Positions 16,274 through 51,448 of a DNA stretch of 64,000 bases are shown in pieces. The notes beneath the pieces were generated by a model. The model made no database searches. It saw only the letters and a list, made by a program, of their open reading frames with translations, and was not told the DNA's origin. Numbering within the stretch: the stretch's first letter is position 1; every line of letters starts with the position of its first letter. The DNA is from Acrasis kona (Eukaryota; Heterolobosea; Eutetramitea; Acrasida; Acrasidae): NCBI GenBank assembly GCA_026419775.2, contig JAOPGA020001095.1, positions 19,049 to 83,048 of the forward strand, read 5' to 3'. A program made the position numbers and the translations under genes.

Positions 16274-19200
16274 TTATTTCTTTGGTAACTGAATTCCTCT
16301 TCTCATCAATTCCTGTACCAACGCATCCGTGTCAACCTTTCTCAACATTTCAACAGTGCTTGGAGTCCTCCTCTTATGTTCGTGATCCTTTCCTTTCTTC
16401 GTGACCTGCTGCTTCTCCTCTTCCTCTTCCTTCTCCTCCACAACATCAACCTCCACCTTCTCCTCCACCTGCTGCTCCTTTTGTTCATCGCTCTTCTTGT
16501 ATTTATTTTCGCTCCTCTTGAATTTTTTATGGCCATCAACAATCATGTCCTTATCCATCAATGGTCTCATGGCCTGTTGAATGCTATAAAACAAATGAGG
16601 ATACAAGTGCTCTTGATTACTCAACAAGGTCTTTACTCTAGCTCTCTCCTTTGGAATTTCGAAACAAGCAGGGCAGTTCTCGTTAATAACGGGCAACACT
16701 TGTTCCTGAGCAAAAATCTTCAAATCCTTTTCTCTAACGTACACCAAGGGACGTATCACTCTCAAATCTCCCTCGTCGATGGTGTAATGAGCCTTCATGG
16801 TGCGCAAGAATCCATTATGGAATATGCTCATCATGAAGCTCTCTGCCAAATCGTCAATGTGTTGACCTAGCGCCAGCACGTTATATCCTTCTCTTCTGGC
16901 AGTGTTGTAGAGAATACCTCTCTTCATTCGGCTGCACCAACTACAAATACTAGTGGCCTGGCAGTCCTTCGCCACTTCGATAATGTTTTGACTCTCGAAA
17001 AAATAAGGCACGCCCAACTTTGCAAGGTACTTTTTAAGTGGAGATGGATCGTATGCATCAGTTTGTGGATCCACGGTACATGCTCCAAATTCAAAATTGA
17101 CCATACCTGTTCTCTGCAAGTTCTTTAGACAATGTAACAATGTAAGAGAATCCTTTCCACCAGATAATCCCAATAAAATTCGATCGCCATCTTTGATCAT
17201 TTCAAACTCTTTGATGGCCTTTTTCATGGGGGTCATTATTTTTTTGGCAGGTACCTTCGGCCAAAGTGTTAATTTGTTCTTTTTAGATGGTTGAGTGGGA
17301 ACGTCAGCCATCATTGGTTGTGGCGATTCTTCTTGTTTGTCGTTGACTGTGTATTCGTTATCGTCATATAAATCCAATTCTTGCGGAACGCATATATTCT
17401 CTACAGGTGTTAATTCTAGTGGAGAAGATGATGGATAAGTCTTTGGAATAAACACAAATGGTCTGTTGCTCTTTGTGTTATTGATTAATTGTCGATAAGC
17501 TTCGCTAGGGTACAAGAACCATCTTAGGCGATCCGAATCTACGCTTTGATGTAATAAATTAGATTGTTCCGGCACGGTATTTGCGTTCGATACTTGATTC
17601 AACAACAACAAGGCTTCCTTCTTGTAAGCATCGTATTGTTTGTGCTTTTGGTTGGCTGCAATTTGTTGATTAACTGGTTGTCTATAAGTCATCTTTCCAT
17701 CTTGATAACTAACGTTACTTAACCAACGACGAGTCGAGAACTTCTTGTTATTAATGTGATACCACTCGCCTGTTTCTGGATAAAATGTATATTGTGGTAA
17801 AAACTTCCATGCATGTTCACAAGCGAATGAAATGGCCCACAACACGTAATCCACTGTTTCTTGATCGAAAAAGTAGTTCAGATTGATTCTGGTGAAACCA
17901 GGTCTCAAGAATTCTTGTTCGTTATTGTTTTTTACGTCTTGGAACAGTAATTCCTTTTCGAAGCTCTTTGCTAGCGGTTGGTCCATTCCTAATAGACGTA
18001 ATCCATAAGGACCTGCACATGCACATCCTCCTCTCGTTTGAATACCGAACAAATCGTTCAAGAAGATGCTCACGAATCCATAGTGTAAGTATTGAGTGTC
18101 GTGCTTGATTAGGAACGAAAAGATTGGTAATTTGTCGTGATGGGTGGGACCCAAGAGTACCAAATTGGGATTTTGTACTAGTTTTTCGGTAGCGCGTTGA
18201 GTTAGCGAGCGCTCCGCTTTTGTAATGTAATCATCTCCTACTGCTTTTTTTAATTGAAAGATTAAACCCGTGCGCACGCTTCCGACGATGCTCGGAGTGC
18301 CTCCTTCTTCTCTTTCATACTTTTTCTTCAAGTAGGTATGATCGTCGTCGGTGACGAAGAATACGGTACCACCACCTGGATGTTGTGGTTTCTTTTCGTT
18401 CAAGAACATGTGCTTCTTGACGATCAGTACACCAGGCGTTTCTACGCCTCCGATGAATTTATGAGGAGAGAAGAAGATTGCATCCTTTCTGGCATCAACG
18501 TGTTCGTGATCGTCGCTCTCTTGTGATTTGATGTTTGGATTCATGTCAATGTTTACATAGGGCGCGGCACATGCATAATCCCAAACTGCGAATGCTTTGT
18601 ATTTGTGAAGCAGGATGGTGATTCCGATGGTGTCGCTTAGAATACCGGTAATGTTGCTGGCGGCGCTGAATGCTCCGATGAGTAGGGTGCCTTCTAGATT
18701 GGAATGTTCCTTGAGTTGACTCTCCAAGTGAGCAACGTCAATGTGACCTTGAGATGTCTCCTTGATGTTGACGACCTTGATTACATTTCTTGATTCACGC
18801 CATGGCAGAATGTTGGAATGGTGCTCGTATGGACCGACGAACACTATTGCTTTTTGGCCTCCTTCTGCATCCAGGTTCAACAAGTGGATGAGCTTGTTGA
18901 GTGCTGAGGTGGAACCACTACCGGTAAAAAGTAAAATGTCCTTCTTGGAGCAGTTGGTGTTGTTGCGCACGATTTGTCTTGATTCAAGGCGGAACAAACT
19001 AGATTGATACCCAGTGACCGAAGTCGAGGTGTGTGTATTGGCGTACATTGTTAACACCTGAGACCTCACATAGTCTTCAATAAAAGTAAGGGCTCTTCCA
19101 CTAGCCACATAATCGCAATATGTGACCATTCTGTATCCGAATGGCGATTTGAACATTTCATTGTCTCCTATGATTGAATCTTGAATGTGTCTGACGAGTT

Positions 19201-19348
19201 GTTCCCTCTTGTCTTGCGTGTATTCGATATCTTGTTGGCCTTCCTGTTCATCGATAATATCGTCCAGGCGGAAGAACTTTCTGGAACCCAGCTTCTGCTT
19301 GACAACATCAACAGACATCTTCAATTTCACAAACGTATCGAACTTCAA
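16274..19348 (-). CDS. Cysteine desulfurase-like aminotransferase V fused to TtcA-type tRNA thiolase
   Basis: An intronless 1024-residue protein. Residues about 65-515 are a class V aminotransferase: GSGSTSALNKL (143-153), HHSNILPWRE (176-185), the PLP Lys297 in FFSPHKFIGG, GTPSIVGSVRTG (350-361) and a Cys-bearing loop RGGCACAGPYG (439-449), the place of the catalytic Cys in desulfurases. After a linker (about 540-690), residues 700-930 are a PP-loop ATP pyrophosphatase of the TtcA family: SGGKDS (729-734), CSWCSRMKRG with a CxxC (802/805), ALGQHIDDLAESF, IRPLVYVREKD, and CPAC (892/895) in place of the third Fe-S ligand. TtcA makes 2-thiocytidine-32 in tRNA using sulfur delivered by a desulfurase; here both steps seem joined. 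The tail is Glu/Lys-rich. Start: first ATG; a second at residue 11 is possible. Confidence 0.88.
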   Translation of the reverse strand: MKFDTFVKLKMSVDVVKQKLGSRKFFRLDDIIDEQEGQQDIEYTQDKREQLVRHIQDSIIGDNEMFKSPFGYRMVTYCDYVASGRALTFIEDYVRSQVLTMYANTHTSTSVTGYQSSLFRLESRQIVRNNTNCSKKDILLFTGSGSTSALNKLIHLLNLDAEGGQKAIVFVGPYEHHSNILPWRESRNVIKVVNIKETSQGHIDVAHLESQLKEHSNLEGTLLIGAFSAASNITGILSDTIGITILLHKYKAFAVWDYACAAPYVNIDMNPNIKSQESDDHEHVDARKDAIFFSPHKFIGGVETPGVLIVKKHMFLNEKKPQHPGGGTVFFVTDDDHTYLKKKYEREEGGTPSIVGSVRTGLIFQLKKAVGDDYITKAERSLTQRATEKLVQNPNLVLLGPTHHDKLPIFSFLIKHDTQYLHYGFVSIFLNDLFGIQTRGGCACAGPYGLRLLGMDQPLAKSFEKELLFQDVKNNNEQEFLRPGFTRINLNYFFDQETVDYVLWAISFACEHAWKFLPQYTFYPETGEWYHINNKKFSTRRWLSNVSYQDGKMTYRQPVNQQIAANQKHKQYDAYKKEALLLLNQVSNANTVPEQSNLLHQSVDSDRLRWFLYPSEAYRQLINNTKSNRPFVFIPKTYPSSSPLELTPVENICVPQELDLYDDNEYTVNDKQEESPQPMMADVPTQPSKKNKLTLWPKVPAKKIMTPMKKAIKEFEMIKDGDRILLGLSGGKDSLTLLHCLKNLQRTGMVNFEFGACTVDPQTDAYDPSPLKKYLAKLGVPYFFESQNIIEVAKDCQATSICSWCSRMKRGILYNTARREGYNVLALGQHIDDLAESFMMSIFHNGFLRTMKAHYTIDEGDLRVIRPLVYVREKDLKIFAQEQVLPVINENCPACFEIPKERARVKTLLSNQEHLYPHLFYSIQQAMRPLMDKDMIVDGHKKFKRSENKYKKSDEQKEQQVEEKVEVDVVEEKEEEEEKQQVTKKGKDHEHKRRTPSTVEMLRKVDTDALVQELMRRGIQLPKK

Positions 19349-19527: not shown

Positions 19528-21330
19528 TCAAGAACAAGCCACGAATGTTGACTTCTTGCTAGAGGAGTTTTTTACGCTCTTGGGACTCCATAATGATTCT
19601 GAAAAGAAGTGTTGTATTTGGTTGGATCCCGAAGGTGTCAAAGAGTTTAGGTTGGTCGGCGTGCTGCTTGTTGGCGTGGTGGATCTAGTGGTCATGTTGT
19701 GAGCTCCTCTTGAACTGTCTTCTCCTAATAACAGACCACTGTCGCTCATGTTGCCAGTGTTGAAGTTCAATGACTCAAAGTCATAGTCGTTACCTTGTAT
19801 GGTTTCGTCTAAACTTATGCTGAGTTTGTTGTACTTTCCGCTTTGACTGTCTAGTTGCTTTGTTGGTGACTTGCAGTAACTCTGGCCGAATGGATTAAAT
19901 ATCCGTTCTTCGCTCTCAAGTTTGAGTTTGTCGCCTTCAAGGTCAAGCACGTGTGTTTTGAATCTCTTTTCATCTGGTTCTTCATTGTGATGGGAATCTT
20001 CGGCACGTAGATGAATGTCATCGAACTGTCCTATGCTCTCTTCAGAGACACCTTCGTCCATCCTTAGTTTTCTTTTGACACCAACAAAGTTTGCGTTGCT
20101 GTACAATTCGAACTTGGGCATGTCTGACACGTATGGAGATGAAGATGTACTTTGGTTGTTGAACCCTGTCATTATTCCACGATTGTTTACATTGTTGAAT
20201 CCAGCACCCATCATCTGTACCGGTGGATTGATCACGACGTGTCGGAGTACATCTGGCGCTGGACCTTCGGAAACAGCAGAAAAGGGTTCCTCGTCGTCCT
20301 CGTTACTACTCAAACTGTCTTCTCCGAGATCCTGAGATGGGGATTCGCCTGGGCGTGCCTTGTCGTGTCTTCTCGATAGAGTAGAGTTCCAGTGGTTCTT
20401 GATGGCGTTGGCAGTTCTTCCGGGAAGGCACCTGCTGATCTTGGCCCATTGGTTTCCATGCTTGGTGTGCATTTCCACAATGATGCTGTCCTCTTGGTTT
20501 GTCCATGCCTTCTTGTTGATCTTTGGATCCAAGTGGTTCAAGTACCTCTCTCTGCATTGTTTCCCGATTCTACCCTTGAGGTGACTAGCAATGAAGCTCC
20601 ATCTCTTGGCGCCATATTTTTTCACAAGCTCGACGAGCTTCTTATCCTCCTCTTCGGTCCACGATCCTTTAATGTGGAACTCGAGCTCGTCCTTTAGGGT
20701 AACGTTATTGGGGGTCGTGCTCATCTTTTGCATGAGGGGTAATGACATGGGAGTAGAAGGCGTAGACGGCGGAGTAGTCAAGTGAATGTGTATGGGTTTT
20801 TGTTGTTGTTGTACTTGCTGTACTTGTTGTATCATGTTATTCACAGCTTGGTGTTGCACTTGCTGGTGTTGCTGCACAAAGGGATTGTTCATCATTGGTG
20901 AGGAGGGCATGTGTGGAGGAGTAGAGTGCGAGGGTATTTGTTCTACGGGCATGCTCAGCTGCATCATTTCTAATACTCTATTGTATACATGGATGGGTAA
21001 TTTACACACGACGAAGGGCTCGTCATTTTTTTGTACAAGGTCGACAATCGGTAGAGAGTCAGTATACATGACGCTGGGCATGCTGTTGCTGTTTTGATTG
21101 TGTATCACACTCGACATCATGTTATTATTGTTGTATTGTTGGTCGAGCATTACTGCAAAGTGCTGCCCGCTCGGCACCTGATTACTCTGTTGTTGGGGGC
21201 TATTAAGGGTAAAGTTTATTTGGTTCTGCTTTTGATTTGCGCTGTGGTTAGTTTCTTGTTTTACACTAAAGTCGTGAAGGAACATCTTTTGGTTGTGAAT
21301 ATCTCCGAAGTGGTCGGATACCAAGTTCAT
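19528..21330 (-). CDS. R2R3-type MYB transcription factor
   Basis: A single-exon 600-residue nuclear protein. Two MYB repeats lie at about residues 220-320: R2 is GSWTEEEDKKLVELVKKYG..W..IA..L.GR.GKQCRERYLNHL, R3 is AWTNQEDSIIVEMHTKHGNQW..IS..LPGRTANAIKNHWNSTL. All tryptophans expected in R2 are present; R3 begins AWT and retains the later W residues. A full R1 repeat is absent, as in plant-type R2R3 factors, though the repeat sequence resembles animal c-Myb. The flanks are low-complexity (Gln, Asn, Ser, Thr-Pro), typical of activation regions. A conserved-looking segment at about 92-125 (VVCKLPIHVYNRVLEMMQLS) is unassigned. Its 5' side faces a gene-poor 1.25-kb region. Confidence 0.92.
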   Translation of the reverse strand: MNLVSDHFGDIHNQKMFLHDFSVKQETNHSANQKQNQINFTLNSPQQQSNQVPSGQHFAVMLDQQYNNNNMMSSVIHNQNSNSMPSVMYTDSLPIVDLVQKNDEPFVVCKLPIHVYNRVLEMMQLSMPVEQIPSHSTPPHMPSSPMMNNPFVQQHQQVQHQAVNNMIQQVQQVQQQQKPIHIHLTTPPSTPSTPMSLPLMQKMSTTPNNVTLKDELEFHIKGSWTEEEDKKLVELVKKYGAKRWSFIASHLKGRIGKQCRERYLNHLDPKINKKAWTNQEDSIIVEMHTKHGNQWAKISRCLPGRTANAIKNHWNSTLSRRHDKARPGESPSQDLGEDSLSSNEDDEEPFSAVSEGPAPDVLRHVVINPPVQMMGAGFNNVNNRGIMTGFNNQSTSSSPYVSDMPKFELYSNANFVGVKRKLRMDEGVSEESIGQFDDIHLRAEDSHHNEEPDEKRFKTHVLDLEGDKLKLESEERIFNPFGQSYCKSPTKQLDSQSGKYNKLSISLDETIQGNDYDFESLNFNTGNMSDSGLLLGEDSSRGAHNMTTRSTTPTSSTPTNLNSLTPSGSNQIQHFFSESLWSPKSVKNSSSKKSTFVACS

Positions 21331-24395: not shown

Positions 24396-27300
24396 TTATT
24401 GCAAATTTTGAATGCTCTGCTTTACATTGTTAACAAACTTTACAATCTGGTTCTTTTGAACAGGCTTGGTGACATAGGAATTCATACCAGATGCCAACCC
24501 ATGTTCTTGATGCTCCTGTCTCGCGTTGCCGCTCAAACCAACAATAAAAACAGCCTTTTTATTTTGTTCACGTTCATATTCTCTAATCTTTTTTGTACAA
24601 TCCAAACCATTCATTCTAGGCATGGACACATCCATGAGCACCAAATCAAACTCTCCGCTGGTATACTTTTCGTATCCCTGAACGCCATCATTGGCAGTCT
24701 CACAAGTACAATTCAAAGAATTTAACATTTTCACGATCACCCGCTGATTGATTAAATTATCTTCCACCACCAACACATTCAAATTAATCAACAATTGTAA
24801 ATCTTCAACGCTCTTATCCGATATACCAATATCGCTCACTCTCCTCTGGCTCTGTCGATAATGATTGGCCTGTTCATCTGCCGCCTGTTCGCACACCATT
24901 GTAAAGTTAAACTTGCTTCCTACGGTCATTCCGAATTCCTTTCCAGATTCCACCCATATCCTTCCGCCCATCAACTCTGATAACATCTTACTTATAAACA
25001 AACCTAATCCACTTCCAGAGTACTCGGACATGTCTCTCTGAGTGGCTTGGACGAATCGATCGAATATGCTGACGCGATCCAACGCATCGACGCCCATTCC
25101 CGTGTCAATCACGCTGAACAACACCTCTAGCTTATTACCAGCTGCCACCTGCACCACATCGCAGTGAATCGTCACTCCGCCTGTCTTTGTAAACTTGATG
25201 GCGTTGCTCACCAAGTTGATCAAGATTTGAGATAGTCTGTTGAAATCAGCAATCACTATCAGTCCCTTCACTGCATCGCTCACATCATCCACCAACGATA
25301 TTTGTTTCTTGTTAGCATCCGCTATGAACATTTGCTCCACCGATTGGATCAAATTAAAAGGCGACATGGGTCTATTTACCAACTTTACCTTGTTCATTTC
25401 CAATTTGGAAAGCGTGAGCACGTCGTCGGTAATTACTTTTTGATACAAACCACACGCCTGAATAGCCTCTGCGCATGAGTGAATGGAATCAAGGTGATCA
25501 CCGAACTTCGATACGTATTGAGTTAGATTTAATGCTTCCAACTCTTGAGTAATTGTTTTTAATACTTCGCAATTGCCCAATAAACCTTGAATTGGATTTC
25601 TAATCTCGTGACAAATTCTATCGACGAATTCTTCCTGTAGCTTATGATACTGTTGTTCCTTTTTACGATTAGCTTCCGCTTCTGCCAATTCCTTCGTAAT
25701 TCTCATTTGGCTCGAGAAGAATCGAGCGTTCTCGAGAGAAATAGCCACTTGGGTGCTGAGTATGGTCATGACGTTAACTTGATCTGGTTTGAAACAATCG
25801 GTCGTTAGATTGTTTTCCATGTATAACACAGCTACGACTTTTTGTTTTCTGGTCACCGGCAAACACATCATTGACTTTATTTTATTTTTCATCACATAGT
25901 CATCTTGAGCGAATAAAGCATCTTCGTGAGCACATCGACTCACAATGATTGATTTGGTCGCTGATACGTGATTGATGGCATGGATGGATCCATTGGACCA
26001 CGTACTTAGTGCAATGTTGCACAAAGAGTCTTGATTGCCGTTTGATTGTGCTTTGACTCTATCGCCCACCACAATGGCTCCCATGCTAGCATTAGCCGTC
26101 TTGACTATAATGTTGATAATGTTGAGCAATAGTTTATCGGTGTCAATGTCGCTGGAGATGATGTGAGAGGCCTTGATGATGTTTTGAATGTCGTAGGTGA
26201 CCAAATTCATGTTGATTGTTTTCGTGGCGTATTGGTCTGCGTCCTCGCTGGTGAAGCTAGTGACGGTGATTGGATTGCTGCTGGACTCTCCGTGCGAATG
26301 ACTAGTAACGAATGGGAATTCGTTCTCCAATAATTCTAATTTCTTGATGGCGCCCCATTTCTTGTACCGATTATAAGCATCGGTGATGCTCGCGTTTGCA
26401 AATCGAACGGAATCCAACGTGAATAAGAATCTGCCCTCTAATTCAAGCGCTAATGCTTGTTCATGAATGAATTTTTGTTTTTTGGCCTCCAGAATGGCCT
26501 GTTGATAAGTTTCGAGAGCTGCATAGCGGCTCTGTTCCACATAAGCACTATATTCTGCCTTTACTAACAATAATTTGTTATAAAAGTTATCTGGACAATA
26601 TTTTGACCATAAAGTCAATAATCGAATGTCCTCCTTTAGTCTAGTTTTGATGTTACGGATGGTGCTCTTGTATTGATTGGCATGTGGTTTGATGGCTCTT
26701 AGTATTCTAATCATGTTTAGAGAATTAAACATTGCATGATAGGATAGAGCAAAAAAGGCTCTCGCAAATACGACTCTCTCGTCAATTTCCTTTAGAGAGC
26801 TCAACTTTCTGCTCACGAACGAATCCAATGTTTCGGTCTCTGAACAATAATCTGGCTCCAACATGAACTCTAACATGCTCTTAAAAGCAAATAAAACACC
26901 GATGGGCGTTCCGGTCATCATTCTACTCAATATACTCTGCACGGCCTCGCCTACGGTTGGTTCTGGTACTTTACCGAGTAATATATCAAAGGTACCGATG
27001 GTAGCTGAAGAAATGTCCATCATGGGTTGATTATGATGCTTCACTGCTAATTGTTGACTATACAACATGTCCTTCATGGCAATATTAATTTCGTAACCTG
27101 CATAAATGATTGCAGGACTGCTAACGCTAATGGTAAACATTGTATATAATACCTCACCACATTCCATGCCCATATCGAATACTTCTTTACAGCTCTTGAT
27201 TGAATCGCTGAGTGGATAAAACCAATGACGCACCATACAATTATACAAGTGAACAGCTCTCGTACGTTCCGGTAATTGAGTAGGGAACAAATCATCCGCG

Positions 27301-30300
27301 CAATGGATAATAATCTCTGCTAATTCCTTACCAAGATCGAATTGTTCCTTACTGAGAAGCGTCAGTGTATAAAGAACGGCCACTGCGCTAAATTCTGCAT
27401 TGATGCACGTGCTAAGCATGATGCGCGCCGATATGCTAGAAATGACTGGATACAGCACTTGATCGCCCATGAAACTAGCGATGCACAGTGCCTGGAACGT
27501 GGTAAATAACACAGCATCCTCGGGTCGAGGCTCGCCCACAATCTTTTCGATATTAATTTTACGAGTGACTGGATCTCGTAGTCCATCCAGTAACTCCTCG
27601 ATGGCAATTCGATCCTTTTCGAACAATGGATCGGCAATTTCGGCCACGCTAGGAGGCATCACCAAATTGTAATGCTTGAGAACGTCTCTACCGAATCCAA
27701 GTGCCAATGGACAATTAGAGAACGAATTGGCCTTGGTGATGCACAAGCTATAAACGCTTCCGAGCTCCAATTTCGTTTTGCCCCTCTCGAGCAACATTTC
27801 GGTAATTTCGTCCGAGTGAGCGAAATCACTAACCAAAAAATAAGTCACCGCCAATTCCATGTACAATGGGAAGATCAAATCGTGATACTTTTCCCAACAT
27901 TCTTCTTGATTGGTGCATAATGCCTTTATGCATTCGATTCCTTGGTGGAAATAATTAAATGCGTTGGAGTAGGACGCCGCTTCTTGATTCTTCTTTCCTG
28001 CTTGTAAATTCATTCGAGCAATTTCTTCGATTTGAATGGTGACGGGGCGATCGTCCAACGAAGAAACGTATTGTGCGTATTGTGAATCGTTCACGAGTTG
28101 TCTTCCCTTGTTCAGGTGGTCAACCACGTCCAACATGTTCTTTGCTTGTTCCTTTTGTAAATGACGAGCATCTCTATCGTCCGTTTCGTGTTTCTCCGAT
28201 AACAACCGATCGTTTGCAAATAACCATCTCTTGCCGATGGACCAATGAATGAAATTTCTTTCGGATTGATTGGTTCGTAAATGAGCCGCTTCTTGTACTC
28301 TATCGTGCGCAAAGTGCATTCGATCGTCGTAAACGACCATCATGCCTGCATCAAGCACTGGATACAAATCTTGCATCACGTTGTCGACGGGCAAGTCCAT
28401 GGCGATGGACAGCACTCGAATGTCAAAGTTGTTTCCCATGCACGAGGCCCATTTGAGAGCCTTTTCGGTTTGACCTCCGAATTGTTTGATTCGATGGGTC
28501 ATGAGGGTGATGACGTTGCTGGTGATGCTTTGTAAACGAATCTTGTCCATGTTCCACTGCCACACCCTTCCCTGTCTCATGATTAACTTTTCGCTGTATA
28601 ACGTGGTCATGAACAAGTGTACGAAGAATGGATTGCCTTCTGTTTTTAAATGTACGAGATCGGCAAGTTCAGCAATGTCGTCGGTTGATGTGGAGGGCGT
28701 TGGTGATCTTGATCTGGACGTGTTGCAACCGCTTCCTTGTAGCGTATCGGATATCCATCGATTAACTACTTGTGAGGGTAACGGCGTTAATACAAAATCA
28801 GTCACTTCCATCAAGGTGCGCATGTGGTCGATCATCTTGACGGCGGGATGTGACGGCGTCACTTCATTGTCTCGATAAGCGCCTACGAATAATAAATGTC
28901 TTGTTGTTTGTAGGATCATCTGTATCATGGCGACGCTCTCTCTATCGGCCCATTGTAAATCATCTGACACGTGTTAAAAATGCGAAAGCAATCGTTACTA
29001 ACCTAAAAACACTACCAACGGCTTCTCCTCTTGCACGAATACATTCACGAACTTTCCGAAAATTAGATCCAGCCTATTTTTGGCCTCCGCAGGTGCTATT
29101 TTTAGTACAGCAGGTTGTTCTCCAATCACTTGTTGCACTTCGGGTATCAAATCGATAATCAGTGTGCCTAGACCTCCAACAGCCTCCAAAATTCTCTTCT
29201 TCCACATCGCCAATCTATTCTCTCCTTCTCCAAGGATTTGTTTGATGAGGCCTTGAAATGACTCAATGATTGCGCTGTACATTGAACTTCTTTCCATTTG
29301 GTCATACTTTGAATGTTATTACTTTGCATTGCTTTGTGCTTACTTTTCCACTCGCAAAATATCCATAATGCATGTGTGCTGATCTCTGCACTTCTCTCAC
29401 GAGAGATGATTTTCCTAATGTGTTGTTGAGTGAAACTGAAATGTCGTCATACCTATACCAGAATATCCAGACACAAGCATCATTTCTGTAACACCTGTTT
29501 TTGACACTTTCTCAAAAGTACTGATCAACTCGCCTATCTGCTTCTCTCTACCGTATAAATGTTTGGGTATGTTGAAGCGCTCTACATAATCCGTAGAACC
29601 TATGGCGAACCATTCAATATTGTTGTTTTCGTCGATTCTATTCTGGCATTCACTCAAATCATTCTGAAGTCCCTGCCAAGACTTGTATCTCTCATTTGCA
29701 TCCTTGTTTAAAAGTTTCATTACGATGTCCGAAATGACTTTCGGTACTTTGTTTAAAGGAGGAGGTTCGACGGCTATATGACAATGTATAAGCTCCAAAA
29801 TGTCTTTACTAACAAAAGGCACACTTCCAGTAAGGAATTGATAGAAGGACATTCCCTAAAAATGATTAAAAATCAAACTTTCAAGAAAAATTACCAAACT
29901 ATAAAAATCTGTCCTATAATCTATTCTTCTATTAATTCTACCAGTTTGCTCTTTAGATTAAGAGTTAGTTTTAACATTCGAGTGACAAATGTACCCGGCG
30001 AAAGATATGCTAACGTTCCGTATACTTTCTGTAGAGCTGTCGTCGCCCTTTCTGTTTCTTCTTGTAGTCGTGTTGCACAACCAAAATCGATCTGGTAGAC
30101 GGTTCCATCTTTTGTCATTATCATGTTCGCGGGTTTCACATCTTTGATTACAATCATTCGACATTCCAATTGATCGCCTTACCTTTATGAATTACATTGT
30201 TCAAATGAATTTGTCTTAGTCCCTTGACACATTCAAGTGCTATGGTTAAAAAATGTTTAATTGAGAATCCCTCATCAGGAATGCTCGAGGACAATACTCT

Positions 30301-49713: not shown

Positions 49714-51448
49714 ATGGAACAACTGAAGTACGTGGTTGTGGGAGATGGAGGGTGTGGAAAGAGCTGTTTAATAATAACCACTGTTACAGGAATTTATCCA
49801 GAGCACTATGTTCCTACTGTCTTCGACAACTACAACCATGCCTTTGTGTATGACAATCACACTTTCAACATAGTGTATTGGGGTATGCTTTAACATGTAA
49901 AATTCTAACAATTATAGATACTGCAGGACAAGTACTATTATGCATAACTTCAACAATTCTAACACGTTGTAGGAGGATTACGACAGACTAAGACCACTAT
50001 CATATCCAAATACAGATGTATTCGCTATTTGCTTTTCGTTGAACAATCGAGCATCGTTCGACAACATCAATGAAAAATGGTTACCGGAAATCGTGCACCA
50101 CTGTCCAGGATCGACAATCATACTTGTAGGAACCAAATCAGATCTTAAAACACAAAACTTGATATCCAATGAAGAAATTGACGGACTCTTAAAACGCGGG
50201 TTTAGTTGCTACGTTGAAACAAGCAGCTTTAGGGGTTCAAATTTGAATCAGTGGGTTGAGCGTGGAGTTCAATATCATTTAAGCCGGTCTTATCCAAAAT
50301 CAAAGAAATCCAAGAGAGTTATATTCCCACCAACCCTGCCCCCTCAGGAAAAAGCACCCTACATGGAAATAGAAAGCTCCACTTTTGATCAAGTGCTCGA
50401 ATACTTGAGACTCGACGCCTCCACTTCTGACGTTGATGTTGTATTAGGTGATTTGGTCATTCCTTGTCATCGAATTATCTTGGCGTCTGGTTGTCCGTTA
50501 TTTTGTAAAAGTCTAGGAGTAGAAGATGATCGTCAGACCGATCAAATAAAAGATGAACATCATGTAATAAAAAGTATTGAGTCTGGAACAGATCAAAACC
50601 GTCATCGAATAATCATTGATGATCAGAAAGTTAATGTTTTTTGTCTTCAAAGATTAATTGAATTTATTTATAGCGGTAACCCATGCATCGACGGATGTGA
50701 TAAAAATGACATTGAAAAGTTAACGAATGTAGCCGATATGTTTCTTCTTCCAATGTTGAAAGGATTTGTTGAGAACTTTCTTGGTGGTGAATCTGATTTT
50801 AATCCCAGCATCACTACTTTTGTAAATGATCAAGTTGCATACAGTCTTTTACATTTATTCTTTGCAAAATCATTATGGAGCGATGTTACTTTTTTGTTTG
50901 AAGGTAGAAAAGTTCCTGGTCACAGAAGCATTGTGATGGCTTCTTGTAAAGTACTAAGAGCGACATTGAGTCCACCGTTCTTCGATGGAATGAATGAAAT
51001 TGAGATCGAAGTATATGACTATAACACTTGTATGGCTTTTCTTGAATACTTGTATACAGCTCATCTCAATATTACTGATGAGACTGCTGTCCCTCTTCTT
51101 GGTATTTGTAATCAGAATAACATGACGCGTCCAATAACGCTATGTGAATTAGCAATCTCAAAAACAATCGAAAGAGAAGTAGCAGATGGTATTGAGAAGG
51201 CGAATGTGGATGTCATTGGGTTGTTTTCCGTTTCCCAGATACACAATGCGCATCAGTTAAATAAATTTTGTATGCACTTTATTTGTACAAACTACAGGAT
51301 TATGAAAAAGAGAACAGAATGGTCACAACTTGATAAAGAAGATGAGAAGCATATAAAATTGAATCAATGGCCTCCCAAGTGGTATTGGCATGAGTTAAAG
51401 AATTATGAGAAGGATTTGAAAAAAGACAAGAAGTGCATCTTGTCTTAA
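49714..51448 (+). CDS. RhoBTB: Rho GTPase with tandem BTB domains and CAAX end
   Basis: Three exons (49714-49882, a 14-nt microexon 49918-49931, 49973-51448) give 552 residues. The Rho domain has [12 protein letters not shown], effector loop [12 protein letters not shown], switch [22 protein letters not shown], and GTKSDL. The microexon encodes DTAGQ. Two BTB domains follow: one at [20 protein letters not shown] with an insertion before its second half, one at [20 protein letters not shown]. RhoBTB proteins act as Cullin-3 adaptors. The protein ends KKDKKCILS, a polybasic CAAX box expected to be prenylated, which typical RhoBTB1/2 lack. This architecture is known from animals and Dictyostelium. 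Confidence 0.93.

Follow-up and report, generated by a model that had tools for sequence, protein, structure and literature searches.

The question of what feeds sulfur to TtcA-type enzymes, which thiolate transfer RNA (tRNA), becomes testable with a gene of Acrasis kona that places a candidate sulfur donor and its acceptor in one purifiable chain. The gene lies in a 64,000-nucleotide stretch of DNA (the window; contig JAOPGA020001095.1, positions 19,049 to 83,048), in which an open reading frame (ORF) at 16274-19348 (-) runs intact for 1024 residues with no internal stop and joins a SufS-like cysteine-desulfurase domain to a TtcA-like domain. We consider it likely that the product is a bifunctional, self-supplied tRNA 2-thiolase, and 2-thiocytidine (s2C) at position 32 of cytosolic tRNAs would be its likeliest product.

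The stop-free frame around the ORF comprises 1031 codons, and the gene is single-copy in the 37.35-Mb assembly. The listed start codon is TTG; because the first ATG is residue 11, at position 19318, and the relative P0002 starts at the equivalent position, the true start is probably this ATG, which would give a protein of 1014 residues encoded at 16274..19318 (-), with the TTG-extended frame reaching up to 19348. Residues are numbered here from the ATG, and numbers counted from the TTG (1024-numbering) are higher by 10. Fused relatives were compared in an alignment of 121 rows, consisting of the window protein and the best 120 of 7849 matches, which come from several sources and include many rows without an organism name; P0001 is the window's own product.

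A SufS-like front half

Pfam places an Aminotran_5 domain at 17981..19120 (-) (77-456 in 1024-numbering, E 3.4e-36), and the NCBIfam model for SufS, a group II cysteine desulfurase, matches 75-448 in 1024-numbering (E 4.1e-32) with 112 bits, missing its 475-bit cut-off by far. The features of group II are present, namely those of a fold type I pyridoxal 5′-phosphate (PLP) enzyme with an active-site lysine and a loop cysteine at the SufS position. The PLP lysine, K287 (K297 in 1024-numbering; 18458..18460 (-)), sits in the motif SPHK and aligns with the lysine of both SufS and IscS. The His-His pair of an EHH motif (18818..18823 (-)) aligns with EHH of E. coli SufS, and this motif presumably contains the active-site histidine. 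The catalytic loop, GGCACAGPYG, carries Cys-Ala-Cys at 18017..18025 (-), corresponding to C432 and C434 (C442 and C444 in 1024-numbering), the second of which aligns with the loop cysteine of SufS.

Identity between the front half and SufS is 25%. The loop reads CxC in the front half, whereas it reads HHC in SufS; the C-terminal part with its RWF motif is longer than that of SufS; and the acceptor, which is SufE or SufU in the case of SufS, is fused in the window protein. This C-terminal extension (17423..17950 (-)) contains the motif RWFLYPSE at 17501-17524, of which R, W, F, and P are retained in at least 118 of the 121 fused rows and which is also found in standalone bacterial relatives of ~580 residues. 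The nearest solved folds are those of SufS-type desulfurases, and E. coli SufS has also been deposited as a selenocysteine lyase. Judged by its sequence, the front half is a distinct SufS-like clade and not SufS itself.

A TtcA-like rear half

The TtcA-like domain at 16451..17251 (-) corresponds to positions 20-284 of the model PRK10696. In NCBIfam, TtcA spans residues 690-956 (700-966 in 1024-numbering; E 1.8e-66) with 224 bits, compared with 66 for TilS, 49 for TtuA, and 36 for NcsA, and Pfam finds the PP-loop family PF01171 at 724-887 in 1024-numbering (E 2.6e-16). The PP-loop motif SGGKDS comprises residues 719-724 (729-734 in 1024-numbering; 17147..17164 (-)). The whole protein has two CXXC motifs only. 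CSWC, beginning at residue 792 (802-805 in 1024-numbering; 16934..16945 (-)), aligns with the first CXXC of E. coli TtcA (Cys122 and Cys125), and CPAC, beginning at residue 882 (892-895 in 1024-numbering; 16664..16675 (-)), aligns with the second, the first cysteine of which is Cys222. These three E. coli cysteines are critical and serve as cluster ligands (PMC5372745; papers are cited here from the parts of their text that were available), and all three have counterparts in the rear half. With two CXXC motifs only, the protein falls into TtcA group I by the criterion given in the available text of PMC3980101.

E. coli TtcA and the rear half have in common the PP-loop, the two CXXC motifs, and the three aligned cluster cysteines, with 37% identity across 230 columns. 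E. coli TtcA is, however, a separate protein of 311 residues that is supplied by IscS, whereas the window domain is fused and is nearer to a bacterial TtcA type of ~250 residues (~60% identity), whose rows with a bacterial name are from Gammaproteobacteria or Acidithiobacillus.

A sequence-only reading of this DNA had described a single polypeptide joining a cysteine-desulfurase fold to a TtcA-like half, and the intact frame and the Pfam and NCBIfam domains in both halves agree with that description; K297, the cysteines of GGCACAGPYG, SGGKDS, CSWC, and CPAC all lie where it had put them. Its interpretation is supported in part: the desulfurase-like/TtcA pair is borne out, with the residues invariant, but the IscS type that it implied for the front half gives way to a SufS-like one. 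An IscS identity or origin was rejected, as the alignment with E. coli IscS is no better than noise (best E 0.61).

Conservation and spread of the fusion

In all 121 rows K297, H176, H177, C442, C444, SGGKDS, C802, C805, C892, and C895 (1024-numbering) are invariant, and other motif letters vary (E175 is present in 101/121 rows and P295 in 78/121). That such a residue set is invariant over 121 rows argues that the fusion is not a product of chance. How far the fusion has spread had been left open by the earlier reading. Both Pfam domains are present in 120/120 of the best 120 of 7849 matches, and the organisms named among these are heteroloboseans or invertebrates without exception; no vertebrate, fungus, plant, or bacterium is found among the named rows. 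The closest named relatives are the heteroloboseans Willaertia, Percolomonas, and Naegleria (the lineages of the first two were checked). The invertebrate groups represented we take to be sponges, Trichoplax, cnidarians, molluscs, annelids, a brachiopod, a nemertean, arthropods, tardigrades, echinoderms, hemichordates, and amphioxus. Many of the invertebrate records are labelled "uncharacterized," and the reading given here proposes a function for them.

Front halves without the TtcA domain are recorded in echinoderms, amphioxus, and the oomycete Albugo. Those of echinoderms and amphioxus (P0258, P0268, P0269, P0271, and P0282; ~730-840 residues) are apparent paralogues beside the fusion. Balamuthia P0246 (829 residues) also carries part of the TtcA half. 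A loose pattern check of P0241-P0359 found the PP-loop in 7/119, with the CxC pattern missing in two and the lysine pattern in three.

A proposed route for sulfur

In the mechanism that we propose, the N-terminal PLP domain would take sulfur from L-cysteine and carry it on C434 in persulfide form, possibly by way of C432. The C-terminal TtcA domain would bind a [4Fe-4S] cluster via C792, C795, and C882; its PP-loop would adenylate the target base, and sulfur from the tethered desulfurase would then be inserted. A linker of ~49 residues (633-681; 17276..17422 (-)), modelled with a predicted local distance difference test score (pLDDT) <50 and probably disordered, would allow the rear half to contact the desulfurase loop in either its own or a partner chain, and transfer between the halves may take place within or across a dimer.

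Bacterial TtcA depends on a [4Fe-4S] cluster and on sulfur derived from IscS; little is understood of the sulfur step (PMC5372745, PMC5372739). Desulfurases of group II have weak activity unless their acceptor is present, and a joined acceptor raises activity in the desulfurase-rhodanese fusion CD-Rhd of Pseudorhodoferax (PMC8931425); from this need for an acceptor and this precedent we infer that the rear half acts as the acceptor. Substrates for C32 thiolation exist among the tRNA genes: in the best 30 of 59 matches, many of them copies, C32 is found in 27/30 and C32 together with A38 in 23/30, including Arg(UCU).

With regard to a mitochondrial location, the pattern R-x-[FL]-[YFH] occurs in the first 150 residues of 67/120 rows (in the first 35 in 56 of these) as opposed to 9/693 control windows, and is absent from 53/120 rows. 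With so many rows lacking it, the pattern speaks only weakly against long transit peptides. P0075, examined by eye, is an apparent exception to this argument.

The protein ends in a charged tail (16277..16543 (-)) of mostly low pLDDT (928-985 <50) with a short helix at its end. A leucine-rich ORF of 164 residues at 16376-16870 (+) lies antisense to the 3′ part of the gene, including this tail, and seems to have arisen merely from the low complexity of the sequence.

Relation to known systems

CD-Rhd is a natural fusion of a desulfurase with a sulfur acceptor that was shown to be bifunctional (PMC8931425). The window protein, by its sequence, likewise has desulfurase-like and sulfur-accepting domains in one chain with both residue sets intact; the acceptor in CD-Rhd is a rhodanese, however, and not a tRNA thiolase. 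Plant ABA3, named in the same paper, has a eukaryotic desulfurase domain fused to another domain, which is a MOSC domain for molybdenum cofactor maturation, whereas the partner in the window protein is TtcA-like.

Among the closest described proteins is TGGT1_294380 of Toxoplasma gondii ("TgTtcA"; PMC9420914, 2022), with a PP-loop domain at 1353-1528 and two class V aminotransferase matches at 62-149 and 571-719. Its authors assigned it to the TtcA/TtuA family and, by family, to s2C32, and found the tagged protein in the cytosol and nucleus. In the available text it is not called a desulfurase fusion, and it is likened to the window protein by its domain description alone. SUF fusions have been described in excavates (PMC6006210), and the available text does not include a desulfurase-TtcA fusion among them; a literature search found no such fusion in paper titles. 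Already known, then, are the two parts, the concept of a desulfurase-acceptor fusion, and the domain pairing in one apicomplexan (PMC9420914). As far as the literature was searched, the new elements are the residue-level case for a desulfurase-TtcA pair, the broad distribution of this pair among invertebrates and heteroloboseans, and the evidence from the bacterial side.

Bacterial relatives and the origin of the fusion

Both halves of the fusion are bacterial in type. At least 577 standalone bacterial relatives of the front half were confirmed, which are class V aminotransferase-like proteins of ~580 residues from Myxococcota, Actinomycetota, Acidobacteriota, Chloroflexota, and others; they have 43-48% best-segment identity to the front half and share its CxC loop and C-terminal extension. 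Comparison of both halves with bacterial sequences, suggested in the sequence-only reading, thus yielded relatives of each half, but an operon or fusion link between them was not found. Among 80 of the front-half loci, many on short contigs, 0/80 have a TtcA-like ORF or a fusion beside the front-half gene; the fusion is present in 0/19 genomes that hold this gene and were searched whole; and no match spans both halves in 132 distinct bacterial genomes, 114 of them gammaproteobacterial. An ATP-binding cassette (ABC)-transporter ATPase, assigned by eye, forms the largest neighbour group (10/80 loci), and the frequent neighbours looked mostly incidental.

The 114 gammaproteobacterial genomes, counted by hand at E 1e-25, hold the TtcA type near to the window protein (46-63% identity) in 35 cases, the canonical type (31-41%) in 55, both in 1, and neither in 25. 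If the types were independent, 16.9 genomes with both would be expected as against the one seen (P(<=1) = 6e-12, with shared ancestry ignored). Such mutual replacement is expected of two versions of one enzyme. Expressed differently, both types occur together in 1/89 gammaproteobacterial genomes holding either.

Quick searches without bootstrap gave unrooted trees of the two halves. The TtcA tree holds the window protein, 32 of the 120 fused rows, and all 120 unfused matches. A branch with support 92, below the starred level, divides a group of 84 unfused rows, including all five bacterial-named rows, from all 33 fused rows, and 36 unfused rows, some of which may be gene fragments, fall among the fused ones (those named are Limulus P0125, Rhipicephalus P0157, and P0184, "Amorp," a name that is cut). 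This tree requires 17 changes of the label "fused" and carries long-branch warnings for P0109/P0155 and P0111/P0126. The front-half tree holds the window protein, 31 fused rows, 22 rows labelled unfused, at least 6 of which hold a PP-loop, and 51 labelled bacterial, of which 40 are every second of the 80 loci and 6 of the 11 others are nameless. A branch with support 99 separates the 51 bacterial-labelled rows and one unnamed row from all 32 fused rows; the unnamed P0253, labelled eukaryotic, is placed among bacteria, and odd letter make-up was flagged in 11 rows, the window protein included.

As no fusion or linkage was found in the bacterial loci and genomes searched, the joining of the two halves probably took place in eukaryotes, which would not have received them from bacteria as an existing pair. 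The trees would fit a single acquisition of each half, an old joining, and later loss or splitting, although they do not prove this history.

Alternative explanations

Several observations weigh against a self-supplied s2C32 synthase. The front half scores below the curated NCBIfam cut-offs of every desulfurase family. The rear half misses the TtcA cut-off of 272 bits and so does not count as an equivalog of E. coli TtcA (514 bits), although the ~250-residue bacterial proteins P0134 (207 bits) and P0156 (192) miss it as well. A disordered linker, as modelled, would mean proximity of the halves and is no proof of channelling. The exclusivity of the two TtcA types may come in part from ancestry, as the genomes are not independent. 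In bacteria the front-half gene has no TtcA-like neighbour, and a TtcA-like gene is present elsewhere in 8/19 of the genomes with the front-half gene, with no match at E 1e-15 in 11/19, which argues that the native role of the bacterial front half is not tRNA thiolation. In addition, the available texts of PMC7694415 and PMC5372739 assign s2C to archaea and bacteria, and PMC9695239 contradicts itself, giving s2C in bacterial and archaeal tRNA in its text and "Bacteria, eukaryotes" in a table. No measured s2C in a eukaryote was found in the available parts of the tRNA-thiolation literature. A broccoli proteomics spot matched to bacterial TtcA was not counted as evidence.

The same two-step enzyme might act on another target, such as U33 or a cytidine elsewhere, which we regard as rather unlikely. 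The rear half is only 37% identical to E. coli TtcA, and the available literature was not found to state a target for the ~250-residue type. Trypanosomatids belong to Discoba, as do heteroloboseans by lineage look-up. The former have 2-thiouridine (s2U33) in tRNA-Trp (PMC5372739), but no trypanosomatid is among the named rows of the listed matches, with no search aimed at trypanosomatids. Moreover, no other NCBIfam model comes close to TtcA in its score for the rear half, and in gammaproteobacteria the near type takes the place of the canonical one. A second alternative concerns the chemistry of the front half, which could be a selenocysteine lyase or a PLP enzyme that acts on some other amino acid, with the fusion being regulatory, structural, or a union of two separate tasks. 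The CxC loop in place of HHC and the lack of linkage to ttcA in bacteria point this way, as does an Lrp/AsnC-like ORF near the front-half gene in 7/80 loci (L054, L065, L068, L073, L075, L078, and L080; L073 was checked by Pfam). In 6 of the 7 this ORF lies on the other strand, no more than ~0.6 kb away. Genes of amino-acid catabolism are known to be arranged in this way, which hints that the bacterial gene has a role responsive to amino acids. We nevertheless find this explanation improbable for the fusion, as the cysteine pair, the PLP lysine, and the histidine pair are in every fused row, the nearest solved folds are SufS-type desulfurases, and a transaminase would not need the cysteines.

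That the fusion is an artefact of the gene model or assembly, or a recent bacterial transfer, is very improbable. What speaks for it is a single intronless ORF with halves of bacterial type; the sequence-only reading had seen in the lack of introns a possible hint of transferred origin, while noting that many neighbours are intronless too. A recent transfer is opposed by the branch with support 99 and by the neighbouring ORFs, which encode eukaryotic proteins (Utp25, SNF2 helicases, BTB, and Myb), so that the gene is not on a stray bacterial contig. Both domains also recur in all of the listed matches, and the epitope-tagged Toxoplasma protein of the same architecture gave a band of the expected size alongside smaller ones (PMC9420914).

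The self-supplied thiolase is therefore retained as the preferred reading. On a broader proposal our confidence is evenly balanced: one enzyme that supplies its own sulfur, put together from two unrelated bacterial genes early in the history of eukaryotes, would make s2C in the tRNAs of a wide range of eukaryotes, among them heterolobosean amoebae, molluscs, ticks, and amphioxus. That s2C had escaped notice would then be explained by the absence of the gene from yeast, human, and the usual model species, all of which are, to our knowledge, without it. A thiolated nucleoside would accordingly be expected in animals and protists in which no measurement of s2C was found.

Neighbouring genes

The ORF at 19528-21330 (-), which encodes a two-repeat Myb protein, is the immediate upstream neighbour of the fusion gene and shares its strand. 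An ORF at 24396-28970 (-) encodes a hybrid histidine-kinase-like protein of 1524 residues with GAF, HATPase, and response-regulator domains, and another at 50039-51448 (+) has partial Ras and BTB domains and appears Rho-BTB-like by eye.
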